A DNA stretch of 40,333 nt from Thermoplasmatota archaeon (GTDB lineage Archaea; Thermoplasmatota; E2; DHVEG-1), in the NCBI GenBank assembly GCA_025457885.1, contig JALOTN010000022.1, positions 1 to 40,333 of the forward strand, read 5' to 3'. The notes beneath the pieces are model-generated. The model ran no database searches, was not told the DNA's origin, and saw nothing but the letters and a program-made list of their open reading frames with translations. A program made the position numbers and the translations under genes. This document shows positions 13,745 to 39,399 of the stretch, in pieces. Each line of letters starts with the position of its first letter. The first letter of the stretch is position 1.

Positions 13745-14746
13745 ATGAAGGAATTAGATATCACCACAATGCGACATGGAACCGACCTAATCAAGCGAGG
13801 ATTCTCAAAAATGCAAAAAGGTGGTGTCATCATGGACGTCACCACCGCAGAACAAGCAAAAATCGCAGAAAAAAGCGGTGCGGTTGCCGTCATGGCTCTC
13901 GAACGAGTCCCCGCAGATATCCGCGCCCATGGTGGTGTCGCACGGATGGCAGACCCAACCATCATTAAACAAATACTAGACACCGTTAGCATTCCTGTCA
14001 TGGCAAAAGCCCGCATCGGACACTTCGTCGAAGCACAAGCACTTGAGGCACTTGGCGTTGACATGATCGATGAATCAGAAGTACTCACCCCTGCTGATCC
14101 GTTTTACCACATTGATAAACGCTGCTTTACCATCCCCTTTGTCTGCGGCTGCCGCAACCTTGGTGAAGCAACCAGACGTATCTGGGAAGGAGCAGCAATG
14201 ATCCGGACCAAAGGAGAAGCGGGCACCGGAAACATCATCGAAGCAATCCGCCATCAACGCATGGTCACCCGCATGATTACCACACTGAAAACGATGCCTA
14301 CGTTGAAAATACAAAAACTCGCCGAGGAATACAGTCAAAGTTACATCACCTCCTATAAAACCTTGACCAATCAACCAGTTGATGACAAAACCCTACTCTT
14401 TGGTTCCTCAACCTATGGAACCATGAAAAAAGAAATATCTGATATATTAAAGGAAATAAAACACCTGCAACGACTCCCCGTTGTGAACTTCGCGGCAGGT
14501 GGTATAGCAACCCCTGCTGATGCCGCTATCATGATGCAACTTGGAAGCGATGGTGTCTTTGTCGGCTCAGGTATCTTTAAATCAAAGAACCCAGAGAAAC
14601 GAGCAAAAGCAATCGTGGAAGCGGTAGCTCACTACGATGAAGCAGACATCATTGCAGAAGTCAGCAGAAACCTTGGTGACGCCATGTTAGGAATAGAAAT
14701 TAGCTCGATTCCAAAAGAACAACTCCTCCAAGAACGAGGCTGGTAG
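13745..14746 (+). CDS. pdxS: Pyridoxal 5'-phosphate synthase subunit PdxS
   Basis: 334 residues. It begins [20 protein letters not shown], then [19 protein letters not shown]. The ribose-phosphate-binding lysine is in [15 protein letters not shown] and the second active-site lysine in [12 protein letters not shown]. Between them and the C-terminal [15 protein letters not shown] segment is an insertion of about 30-40 residues seen in archaeal PdxS. The enzyme builds PLP from ribose 5-phosphate, glyceraldehyde 3-phosphate and ammonia supplied by PdxT, whose frame opens immediately downstream. The start at 13745 is chosen for its ribosome-binding site and for the family's N-terminus. An ATG at 13709 is too early. 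Confidence 0.95.
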
Positions 14747-14748
14747 GA

Positions 14749-15339
14749 ATCGTCACCATCGGGGTCTTATCCCTCCAAGGAGCAGTTTCAGAACATCTCG
14801 TCTCAATGAATCGTGTTTTTCAGGAAGACCAGAAGACTGGAAAAGCTATTCTCATACGTCAGATTAAAGACATAGACTCTTGTGATGCATTAATAATCCC
14901 TGGTGGAGAAAGCACCACCATCTCCCGTATTTTGGTGAATTCCGGTATGTATGATGCAATCCGCAGACGGATGGAGAATGACGATATCGCCCTTATGGGA
15001 ACGTGTGCAGGATGTGTCTTGCTAGCCAAGGAACTCACCGATACAACCGCTGATGTCAAACTCCTAGAAGCAATCGACATGCAGGTAGAACGCAACGCAT
15101 TTGGCAGACAAAAAGAATCACACGAGCGGTCAATACGCATAAAAGGATTCACAGAGTCGTATCATGCTGTTTTTATCAGAGCACCCATCATCACAAAAAC
15201 ATGGGGGGACTGTGAAATCCTATCAAAAGCGGGTAAAGAAATAGTCATGGCCAGGCAGAAGAACTACCTGGCGTTATCGTTTCATCCTGAGTTAACTGAT
15301 GACCTCAGGATTCATCGATTTTTTTTAGAGATGCTGTAG
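14749..15339 (+). CDS. pdxT: Pyridoxal 5'-phosphate synthase glutaminase subunit PdxT (non-canonical start)
   Basis: About 196 residues, normal for PdxT. It has IPGGESTTISRIL, GTCAGC with the nucleophile cysteine at about residue 86, RNAFGRQKESHE, and the catalytic histidine in SFHPEL near the end. It releases ammonia from glutamine for PdxS. The invariant N-terminal IGVLSLQGAVSEH is encoded from 14758, but there is no ATG, GTG or TTG in frame between an upstream stop (14701-14703) and the first ATG at 14806, which would delete this segment. The codon at the expected start is ATC (14749), two bases after the pdxS stop, with GAGG 9 bases upstream. A CTG at 14740 is the alternative. Confidence 0.88.
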   Translation: MVTIGVLSLQGAVSEHLVSMNRVFQEDQKTGKAILIRQIKDIDSCDALIIPGGESTTISRILVNSGMYDAIRRRMENDDIALMGTCAGCVLLAKELTDTTADVKLLEAIDMQVERNAFGRQKESHERSIRIKGFTESYHAVFIRAPIITKTWGDCEILSKAGKEIVMARQKNYLALSFHPELTDDLRIHRFFLEML

Positions 15340-16029: not shown

Positions 16030-19941
<3,912 letters not shown>

Positions 19942-24893: not shown

Positions 24894-25110
24894 TAAAAAT
24901 GAAAAAAAGCAGAAGCGACGAATAACCATCTGTCTTCACAAAAACCTTATTCGAGATGCACAAAAACTGAAAATTTGCATCAGTTCGTTTGTAGAAATCG
25001 AGTTAAGGAAATATATCGCAGTGATCGATAGAAGAAGGACTGATGAAGCTTCTCTGAAAAGAGATGAGTGCGGGCGCCGGGATTTGAACCCGAGTTTTAA
25101 GCTTGGCAAG
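24865..25110 (+). pseudogene. N-terminal remnant of an archaeal tyrosine integrase (int(N)-like) ending in a tRNA gene
   Basis: The frame encodes KRRITICLHKNLIRDAQKL followed by ISSFVEIELRKYIAVIDRR (about 24919-25040), the ribbon-helix-helix-like opening typical of euryarchaeal tRNA-targeting integrases. It then runs antisense through the tRNA-Gly 3' half (DECGRRDLNP). The only in-frame ATG (24865) lies inside the DUF7000 gene. A second ATG at 24899 is out of frame by one base, suggesting decay. No catalytic integrase domain follows: beyond the tRNA the frame is random chromosomal sequence. This is the pattern left when an integrase gene is split by its own integration. The family call is from memory of motif style. 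Confidence 0.55.
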
Positions 25111-25130
25111 CAGACTACACTACACCCGCA
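25069..25130 (-). tRNA. tRNA-Gly(GCC)-like gene with a truncated D arm, probably a pseudogene
   Basis: The minus strand reads as a tRNA of only 62 bases. The acceptor stem GCGGGTG/CGCCCGC pairs fully with one G-U. The T arm TCGGG-TTCAAAT-CCCGG is intact. The anticodon loop TTGCCAA gives GCC (glycine). Between TAGTGTAGT and the anticodon arm about 10-11 bases are missing: the second half of the D loop and stem is absent, and the 5' anticodon strand pairs at only 3 of 5 positions. No CCA is encoded. It overlaps the integrase remnant. It is either a damaged tRNA from element integration or loss, or an assembly error. Confidence 0.6.
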
Positions 25131-25271: not shown

Positions 25272-26309
25272 ATGACACCTTTGAAACGGATGGTACACAT
25301 CCTCTCTGTTCTTCTCATTCTTCCTGTTCTTCTCTCTATCCCAATTCATGGAGGTCCCTTGGTCCTACCTCATCAATCATCCATCGAAGAAATCACCCTG
25401 CAAGATGATGCGTTCCATGGCCGGGGAAGTCTCCCCTTCATCGAATGGTGGTACTTCGATGCAAAACTTGACAACGGGTACTCTTTGGTCCTTGGCGTGC
25501 AAGTTTTAAATATCTTCGCACGTGGAATCGTCACGACACGTCTCACCATGTATCATCAAGGGTCCCTCCTCATCAAAAGCTATGAAAAATACTTCCTTAG
25601 AGATTTTTCTGCTTCATCTGAGGTTCCTTCCGTGTTCATTGCAGGCGATCAAGTCATCCTTGGAACATATGATACAGCCAATGACCGCTTTTTCTATACC
25701 GTCACCATAAAAACCCCTGAAGGTGCAGTCGACCTCCAATTTAATGGCTGTACTAAAGGCTGGAAACGTCAACAACAAACAGGGGACTGGTGGGCAGTCG
25801 TCCTCCCCCGTGCAACTGTTTCTGGAACGATCACCATCAACAACGAAACGATGAATGTGACAGGAACTGGGTATCATGACCACAACTGGGGGATTGGTCC
25901 CCGCGTCGCCCTGCATTTTGGATGGTTCTGGGGAACCTGCAATTCAACAACCTACACGGTCACCTGGGCGGAGATCCGCACAACCAGACTTACGGAACTG
26001 CCGATTATGGTCTTAAACATAAAAGACGCAGGATACCTTGAGATCCCCTCAGAGACCATCTGGTTCTCTACAGATAATCTCTCCTTTGATCATTTCAGAC
26101 GCATCCCTTGGTTTTTCAACATCGAGACAATCACCGAACATGTCTTCCTTGTTATCGACATGGAAGTCATCAGCATGGATCATACCGAGATGCTAGGGTT
26201 CATCAACTACTGGAGATACCATGTCCGATGCACCGGGACGATCATGGTGGATGGACATGTAGAGACCGTGGAAGGGATTTCCATCATGGAATATCTCCGG
26301 TTCCGATAG
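25272..26309 (+). CDS. Secreted CrtC/AttH-like lipocalin-fold protein
   Basis: 345 residues. The signal peptide is within the first 26 or so residues (KRMVHILSVLLILPVLLS). The mature part carries EWWYFDAKLDNG near residue 60 and GTGYHDHNWGIGP near residue 200, the paired signatures of the hydroxyneurosporene synthase (CrtC)/AttH lipocalin-like superfamily. CrtC itself hydrates carotenoids, but most secreted relatives are of unknown role and may bind hydrophobic ligands. The stop overlaps the tail of the convergent tiaS gene by 26 bases. The link to the CruF-like gene far upstream is only thematic. Confidence 0.75.
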   Translation: MTPLKRMVHILSVLLILPVLLSIPIHGGPLVLPHQSSIEEITLQDDAFHGRGSLPFIEWWYFDAKLDNGYSLVLGVQVLNIFARGIVTTRLTMYHQGSLLIKSYEKYFLRDFSASSEVPSVFIAGDQVILGTYDTANDRFFYTVTIKTPEGAVDLQFNGCTKGWKRQQQTGDWWAVVLPRATVSGTITINNETMNVTGTGYHDHNWGIGPRVALHFGWFWGTCNSTTYTVTWAEIRTTRLTELPIMVLNIKDAGYLEIPSETIWFSTDNLSFDHFRRIPWFFNIETITEHVFLVIDMEVISMDHTEMLGFINYWRYHVRCTGTIMVDGHVETVEGISIMEYLRFR

Positions 26310-27636
26310 TGGTCACCACGGAAGGAAGCCCCATTCTTTTTAAGGGTTTACTGAGATGACGACGAGCACAAATAGGAACCTCGTACATCCCCGGTGTGAG
26401 AGACCGTTGTGTGTACTGTAAAACTGGTTCTGTGCTACTTGTCTTACACTTCCTACATTTGAATCCTTGATTGGTCCCTTTCGATTTCATATGTTTCCCG
26501 CAGGTCGGACACACAGGGTTTTCAACTTTTCTAATGAGAGACGCCAGTTGAATCACCCGTATTTTTTCAAGGTTAATAGTCAACGGCTGTTCGCGGACGC
26601 CTCCAAAGACTTCGACGATATCATCTGTGGAAAGCTTACGAATGATCTGACGGAATCCTTTGGTCGGCTCATAGGCAGCACAATCAATGGTTCCTGTCGC
26701 ATCACGGATCCTGAAAAGAACATGACCCCCAGGAATCGTTTTCGCAGGCTCAACAACCGTCCCCTTCACGATCACCGACTCAAATGATTGAACCTGAACA
26801 ATCGATTTTCTCATCAGATGATCATCGGTCCCTTGATTTGTTTCAAACAACAGCCAGCTCTCCATCGGCTCTGATTTCACTAGTTCAACAGCCAACCGGA
26901 GCTCCTCAGGGTTCTCCCCTCTGATCCCATACAGGATCGGACAAGGTGAGGCAGGGACAAGACGATTATGACGATTCAATGTATCATAGTTGTCAAACGT
27001 CCCAGTACATTTCATATCCATCTGTTGAACGGACCTTGCATCCACCTGTCGTTTCGTCCCCCACCGCTCCCGGGGCCGATAGGCGATAATCTCATAGGTC
27101 CGATCCCCAGGCTCCCAACTGACCGCGGCAGTCGCCCCTATCAACCCACGTTTATTCTTGTATCCTTCATAGACTGCGTGATGATCCTTTAAAATAGCAA
27201 GGACCTCCTCAAGAGCAACCAAAGTGGTTACCGCTTTCTGATACAACTCACATGATGGCTTTATCGAAAGAACAACGAAACCTGGGTTTGTGTTTGCATC
27301 CTCCACACGGGCTTGTGATTCAACGATTTCCTTTACAACACCCACAAGATTGCTTTGTTGCTGTTCCGAAAGTTCAGTAAAAGGAGGTGAACCACCGTAC
27401 ACCTCATGGCCATTGATCATCGCAATTCTCTTTTTTGTTTTTCTGGAGTGTGTTCCTACCTGGAGACAGACCGCTCCGTTCCCCCGAGTCTTCCAGGGCA
27501 CATTCGGGTTCAACCGAACCAGCCGTGGATAACCGATAATCTCATACTCATCTAAGAGTCTCTGCAGGATGGTCCGCAGCACATACGTCGTGCACCCCCC
27601 ATTCACCGAGTCTGTATCGTCAATACCTATCCAGAT
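26284..27636 (-). CDS. tiaS: tRNA(Ile2) 2-agmatinylcytidine synthetase TiaS (non-canonical start)
   Basis: About 450 residues. It has the opening WIGIDDTDSVNGGCTTYV (kinase-like TCKD domain), the ferredoxin-like middle GLIGATAAVSWEPGDRTYE, an OB-fold (VIVKGTVVEPAKTIPGGH) and a C-terminal zinc ribbon (CPTCGKHMKSKG ... CRKC). TiaS attaches agmatine to C34 of tRNA-Ile(CAU) so that it reads AUA. The conserved N-terminus continues upstream of the first GTG (27606), which would cut off IGIDDTDS. Between an in-frame TGA (27645-27643) and that GTG there is no ATG/GTG/TTG. The codon where Met is expected is ATC (27636), with GGTGA 6 bases upstream. Confidence 0.9.
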   Translation of the reverse strand: MWIGIDDTDSVNGGCTTYVLRTILQRLLDEYEIIGYPRLVRLNPNVPWKTRGNGAVCLQVGTHSRKTKKRIAMINGHEVYGGSPPFTELSEQQQSNLVGVVKEIVESQARVEDANTNPGFVVLSIKPSCELYQKAVTTLVALEEVLAILKDHHAVYEGYKNKRGLIGATAAVSWEPGDRTYEIIAYRPRERWGTKRQVDARSVQQMDMKCTGTFDNYDTLNRHNRLVPASPCPILYGIRGENPEELRLAVELVKSEPMESWLLFETNQGTDDHLMRKSIVQVQSFESVIVKGTVVEPAKTIPGGHVLFRIRDATGTIDCAAYEPTKGFRQIIRKLSTDDIVEVFGGVREQPLTINLEKIRVIQLASLIRKVENPVCPTCGKHMKSKGTNQGFKCRKCKTSSTEPVLQYTQRSLTPGMYEVPICARRHLSKPLKRMGLPSVVTTIGTGDIP

Positions 27637-27689
27637 AACATTTCACCAAAAACGTTATTAGAGAGGACGTACTTTAAGCTTCATTACCT

Positions 27690-39070: not shown

Positions 39071-39399
39071 GGCGGGTGTAGACGCCTCTTGAGTGGGTGC
39101 ACGTGGTATACAAGTGATTGCCCGTCTGCATTCTCAACCCCGTTAACCCTCTGAGCATCGGCAGTCTGTGGTAAGGCTGCTCACTTCCGTGCCTCACCCG
39201 GTTCCCACAGCGAAGATAGACATATGACCCTCCGGTCATATGCGATTATCACCTCTGATCCCAAAGGACAAGGCGTCATAGGCAACAAACGGATCACGAG
39301 ATACTCGTAACACCGCCTCGTAAGATCGACCCCAGCGTATCGGCGATTTCTGGTTACAGGGAACGCCTAGCTCCCCGGTCTATTCTACACCTTTCGCCA
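39071..39399 (-). ncRNA. ffs: Signal recognition particle 7S RNA
   Basis: About 329 bases on the minus strand. Ends pair as helix 1: GGCG...GTGTAGA at the 5' end with TCTACAC...CGCC at the 3' end, an archaeal trait. The Alu-domain motif GGGAGCTAGGCG leads into CCCTGTAACC. Helix 8, the SRP54 site, reads GTGAGGCACGGAAGTGAGCAGCC (GGAA tetraloop near 39185-39188) and is close to the universal sequence. The RNA scaffolds SRP19 and SRP54 for co-translational targeting of membrane and secreted proteins. A TATA-like TTTAATTACT (minus, 39437-39428) lies inside the tail of the upstream gene. Confidence 0.93.

Follow-up and report, generated by a model that had tools for sequence, protein, structure and literature searches.

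An AUC start codon conserved at tiaS in Thermoplasmatota archaea and probably retained as a weak start

The tiaS gene in a 40,333-nucleotide stretch of archaeal DNA (the window, meaning that stretch at its full length) carries ATC at its start position, and comparison with relatives makes the assignment of AUC as the start codon well supported. Our main reading, to which we give a probability of roughly 0.8, is that tiaS would be translated from the AUC at 27636 as a selected weak start of the kind seen in bacterial infC, most likely giving a low output of TiaS. The retention of an abnormal start (AUC, AUU or AUA) through dozens of genera of a large set of uncultured archaea suggests that a deliberately weak start has been preserved.

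The tiaS gene and its start site in the window

The window comes from an archaeal draft genome (G000) of 2.07 Mb in 100 contigs. Read along the minus strand, the start region of tiaS runs TTT GGTGA AATGTT ATC TGG ATA GGT ATT GAC GAT ACA GAC TCG, and the features of the gene are as follows.

26284 to 27636, minus strand: coding sequence of tiaS, 450 codons from the ATC through to the stop, for the tRNA-Ile2 2-agmatinylcytidine synthetase
27634 to 27636, minus strand: ATC, start codon of tiaS; the column holds ATC, ATT or ATA, or ATG or GTG, in relatives and is followed by a Trp codon nearly invariant in the family
27643 to 27647, minus strand: GGTGA, Shine-Dalgarno (SD)-like, 6 nt 5' of the ATC
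27643 to 27645, minus strand: TGA, in-frame stop three codons 5' of the ATC, kept in most of the genus
27670 to 27680, minus strand: AGCTTAAAGTA, BRE/TATA candidate near tiaS, in a block conserved in the genus

The original prediction had described a GGTGA six bases upstream of the ATC, an in-frame TGA at 27645-27643 and, as the nearest downstream alternative, a GTG at 27606, and all three are confirmed in the window sequence. No in-frame ATG, GTG or TTG (NTG) lies between the TGA and the ATC, and the GTG, which is the first in-frame NTG downstream, is 10 codons inside the gene. One out-of-frame ATG is found near the start, at 27641. The BRE/TATA candidate would imply a leader of ~12 nt with the SD inside.

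The encoded protein has the complete TiaS domain set above cut-off, namely PF22641, PF08489, PF01336 and PF23783 (TCKD, FLD, OB and zinc ribbon), and matches PDB entry 4rvz, one of the Archaeoglobus TiaS structures, with E=2e-103. The NCBIfam equivalog NF040849 matches in two stretches with 397.7 bits, below its cut-off of 600, a shortfall that we read as reflecting a cut-off set on other lineages. The substrate, tRNA-Ile2(CAU), is present, as judged from Ile2-like tRNAs assigned by sequence features in G000 (L339) and in the related genome G014 (L334). Archaeal TiaS such as that of Archaeoglobus fulgidus (4rvz) belongs to the same protein family and has the same N-terminal GIDDTDS motif; its Trp is residue 4, whereas the start of the window TiaS lies directly before the Trp, so that the 4rvz protein begins earlier. 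Initiation at the AUC would give the N-terminus Met-Trp-Ile-Gly-Ile-Asp-Asp-Thr-Asp-Ser, with the predicted peptide start MWIGIDDTDSVNGGCTTYVLR.

The start column in relatives

tiaS was found in 55 of the 59 genomes searched. Most leaders in the family have ATC, sometimes ATT, directly 5' of the Trp of WIGIDDTDS, a few have ATG, and sister lineages have ATG or GTG in exactly this column; the claim that ATC occupies the expected start is borne out by ~37 family relatives as well as by further branches within the phylum. Across 390 phylum genomes, ATG, GTG or TTG stands in the column in 131 places, and among 126 distinct leaders it is occupied by AUH (ATC, ATT or ATA) in 60. We called an AUH case strict when there was no in-frame ATG, GTG or TTG from the start column back to the upstream stop, which gave 34 genes in Thermoplasmatota (30 ATC, 3 ATT and 1 ATA); the remaining 26 of the 60 are not strict, the start being ambiguous in some species because a GTG or TTG lies inside or before the SD. 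In one genome (G020, locus L038) the ATG is shifted one codon upstream and the column itself is ACC. The ATT cases of family f34 (g117) were rejected as internal Ile codons behind a TTG or ATG at -8. Genome G279 has two tiaS-like matches (C24:53145 and C1:2435), with ATC in the start column of one and ATG in that of the other.

In the 25 family members compared, codons 2-10 read W I G I/V D D T D S and differ only synonymously, except for Ile/Val at codon 5, which indicates that they are translated. In these members codon -1 specifies I, T, K, V, N or S, and the upstream in-frame stop of strict genes is found at codon -1 (G133), -2 (G035), -3 (8 genes) or -4 (4 genes). The synonymous pattern and the nearby stops together indicate that translation covers the TGG and, in genes with a stop nearby, cannot begin more than a few codons ahead of it, and the occurrence of ATG, GTG or TTG in the same column then places the start on the ATC.

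Three other explanations of the ATC bear on this placement. Initiation might use another non-canonical codon close by, for example an AUU at -1 or the AUA that often forms codon 3, as an Ile codon is found at -1 in 15 of the 25 family members and ATA at codon 3 in 19 of the 25, and in a single species AUU at -1 could serve as start. We nevertheless find this quite improbable: position -1 varies freely, even to a stop in G133, a start at codon 3 would lose the Trp, which is invariant in the aligned homologs, and the ATG and GTG replacements sit on the ATC column. A start at a downstream GTG, TTG or ATG, for which the window offers the GTG at 27606, would give a protein without its N-terminus. 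This is very improbable, given that the first downstream NTG of the strict genes lies anywhere from 4 to 202 codons inside and that the WIGxDDTDS codons that would be skipped are under purifying selection in the family. Finally, we attach almost no weight to an error of sequencing or assembly, or to a frameshift that would join the window's ATG at 27641, which is one frame off. That ATG is not kept in the genus and is absent from close relatives sharing the ATC, 22 of the 34 strict leaders lack ATG in every frame over 40 nt, and the closed chromosomes CP070724.1 (G014) and CP070798.1 (G034) have the same ATC; the original prediction had argued against such an error, and on this point the relatives and both closed chromosomes agree with it.

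An SD motif, scored as an anti-SD match of at least 4 bases at 3-11 nt, is present in 32 of the 34 strict AUH leaders versus 14 of the 45 NTG leaders (Fisher p ~8e-9, a statistic that ignores shared ancestry). Many of the NTG genes appear to be leaderless, a TATA-like box being found near their ATG. AUH without an alternative also occurs in families f14, f39, f45 and f52 and in bins named Methanomassiliicoccales and Proteinoplasmatales, and AUH starts fall in several separate branches of a TiaS tree made by a quick method from 104 rows. On this tree the strict AUH group takes 16 changes, at least 7 of them forced by the starred branches, with gains and losses not distinguishable; a two-state minimum of 13 results when ambiguous cases are scored as AUH.

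Other non-canonical starts

The original prediction had paired tiaS with a second ATC start, at 14749 in pdxT. This does not hold, as most close relatives have ATA in place of the ATC at 14749 and the start column of pdxT is found at 14740.

14740 to 15339, plus strand: pdxT, probably beginning with the CTG at 14740-14742, a column in which relatives have CTG, TTG or ATG

The start of pdxT overlaps the pdxS stop TAG at 14744-14746. Its column holds CTG in the window and throughout most of the genus, ATG in many of the sister genera and in some relatives TTG; it is set by the overlapping Gly codon of pdxS, GGC-TGG-TAG giving CTG and GGA-TGG-TAG giving ATG. From these columns, CTG 14740-14742 is most likely the start of pdxT, and with pdxT on CTG the earlier count of two ATC starts in 13 kb falls to tiaS alone.

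A census of starts sampled 332 kb from G000, 239 kb from G005 and, in both G014 and G034, 400 kb. Homologs were available for 446 genes; the 53 of these that might lack a canonical start were checked by hand, leaving four kinds of gene: tiaS, pdxT (CTG), archaellum flaC (ATA) and a T2SSF/flaJ-like (flaJ/tadC-like) gene (ATA). In flaC and the T2SSF/flaJ-like gene, ATA is kept across many genera of the same order, and a stop lies either immediately before it or three codons before it. The flaC-like gene (PF05377; G000 C4:8448-9272, minus strand; L381-L399) has a conserved ATA start (also ATT or ATC) after GGAGGGG, which in several genera is directly preceded by a stop codon. In the T2SSF/flaJ-like gene (PF00482; G000 C37:18497-19405, minus strand; L400-L423) the ATA is conserved, with ATG in two genera; GGTGA (GGGTGA) lies six bases 5' of it, and it overlaps the stop of the preceding gene as ATAA.

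The original prediction had looked to a genome scan for further cases, and conserved AUH starts were indeed found in these two genes, but SD-preceded ATH codons show no genome-wide enrichment over other SD-preceded codons. AUH starts are rare, yet several are conserved. tiaS is set apart from flaC and the flaJ-like gene by its recurrence across the phylum and by having a leader to itself that faces a divergent HTH gene.

The persistence of AUH in flaC and the flaJ/tadC-like gene means that the cause may be a clade-wide tolerance that is not specific to TiaS, whereby a strong SD or coupling to an upstream gene permits AUH and the tiaS codon drifts nearly neutrally without regulatory meaning. 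This is a serious rival to a selected low-output start and one that we hold to be possible, if tentatively so, as flaC keeps its ATA, ATT or ATC after GGAGGGG and the flaJ-like gene its ATA after GGGTGA within the same order, and pdxT adds a CTG start. Few genes are affected, however, SD-preceded ATH codons are not enriched, and aIF1 has ATG in all relatives displayed. Moreover, if the codon were neutral, a single C-to-G change would yield ATG, yet ATC or ATT persists in the tiaS column through most of ~20 genera.

Decoding, dosage and comparison with known systems

Start-site proofreading in archaea is done by aIF1. The aIF1 gene is present, with its ATG start behind a strong SD, and was for this ATG rejected as an infC-like AUH gene. 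Genome G014 has three CAU tRNAs, namely the initiator, with three G-C pairs in its anticodon stem, an intron-bearing elongator Met tRNA and the Ile2-like tRNA, together with one Ile-GAU tRNA. An unusual initiator tRNA or a missing aIF1 was considered as the cause of the AUC start and rejected, since with ordinary CAU and GAU tRNAs and aIF1 present there is no special initiator or absent factor behind it.

The window also holds a tRNA-like remnant at 25069-25129 (minus strand), which has intact acceptor and T arms but degenerate D and anticodon arms and is given no ARAGORN call, and an archaeal SRP RNA at 39076-39390 (minus strand; Rfam RF01857, 190 bits). At 16236-18236 (minus strand) lies an ORF that resembles, by reading only, an NAD-dependent DNA ligase, beside a PolX-like gene and in an archaeon.

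In the reading that we prefer, a selected weak start, the GGTGA would position the 30S subunit at the AUC, and the ordinary initiator Met-tRNA(CAU) would pair with it with a mismatch at the third position. The Pyrococcus 30S:aIF1 complex binds mRNA through the SD whether or not a Met codon is there (PMC6237735), and such SD-dependent binding offers a route for AUH initiation. The weak start would be kept by selection across the family, recurring in other Thermoplasmatota families, and its effect would be a low rate of TiaS synthesis that depends on the stringency of initiation set by aIF1. We infer this throttle purely from the persistence of the codon. A plausible candidate for the selective reason is that surplus TiaS could act on other CAU tRNAs; the more specific proposal, that an AUH start evolved recurrently in the phylum and limits TiaS because surplus would modify C34 of tRNA-Met or of the initiator, the choice of start guarding the border between Met and Ile, appears to us unlikely.

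The original prediction had also speculated that CAU decoding could feed back on tiaS. The sole link is the CAU anticodon common to the TiaS substrate and the initiator tRNA, to which may be added that codon 3 is often AUA. TiaS-modified tRNA-Ile2 is, however, an elongator that reads AUA and not AUC, and the start is AUC or AUU in nearly all genes; the AUA at codon 3 is not conserved in GC-rich families, and the fold of the leader in the window is not unusual (z=-0.68). With an ordinary tRNA set besides, the loop is unsupported, and feedback on the AUC start by TiaS or its product tRNA seems highly doubtful.

Gene finders normally take only ATG, GTG and TTG as starts, so that tiaS and a few other genes of the phylum are probably annotated with missing N-termini. 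The open-access texts that we searched report conserved non-AUG starts for bacteria and organelles, with none for such archaeal genes or for tiaS. Together tiaS, flaC and the flaJ-like gene provide a natural archaeal set of AUH starts for asking how aIF1 and the SD set start-codon stringency.

The start of tiaS finds a parallel in infC, the gene of bacterial IF3, which is likewise translation-related and has a conserved AUH start with long evolutionary retention; tiaS resembles it in having no canonical alternative (in the 34 strict cases) and in its conservation over many genera. IF3 itself rejects AUH starts and hence autoregulates, whereas TiaS is an archaeal tRNA modification enzyme for which we know of no role in start selection and no mechanism of controlling its own start, and control of the kind exerted by IF3 is unlikely. 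E. coli starts infC with ATT and Streptomyces starts it with ATC, and the GTC start of sigR is repressed by IF3 (PMC5472188). In Streptomyces sigR the non-canonical start limits protein dose, as established by experiment, whereas the case for tiaS comes from sequence comparison, and sigR differs further in being bacterial, in its GTC codon and in its coupling to rsrA.
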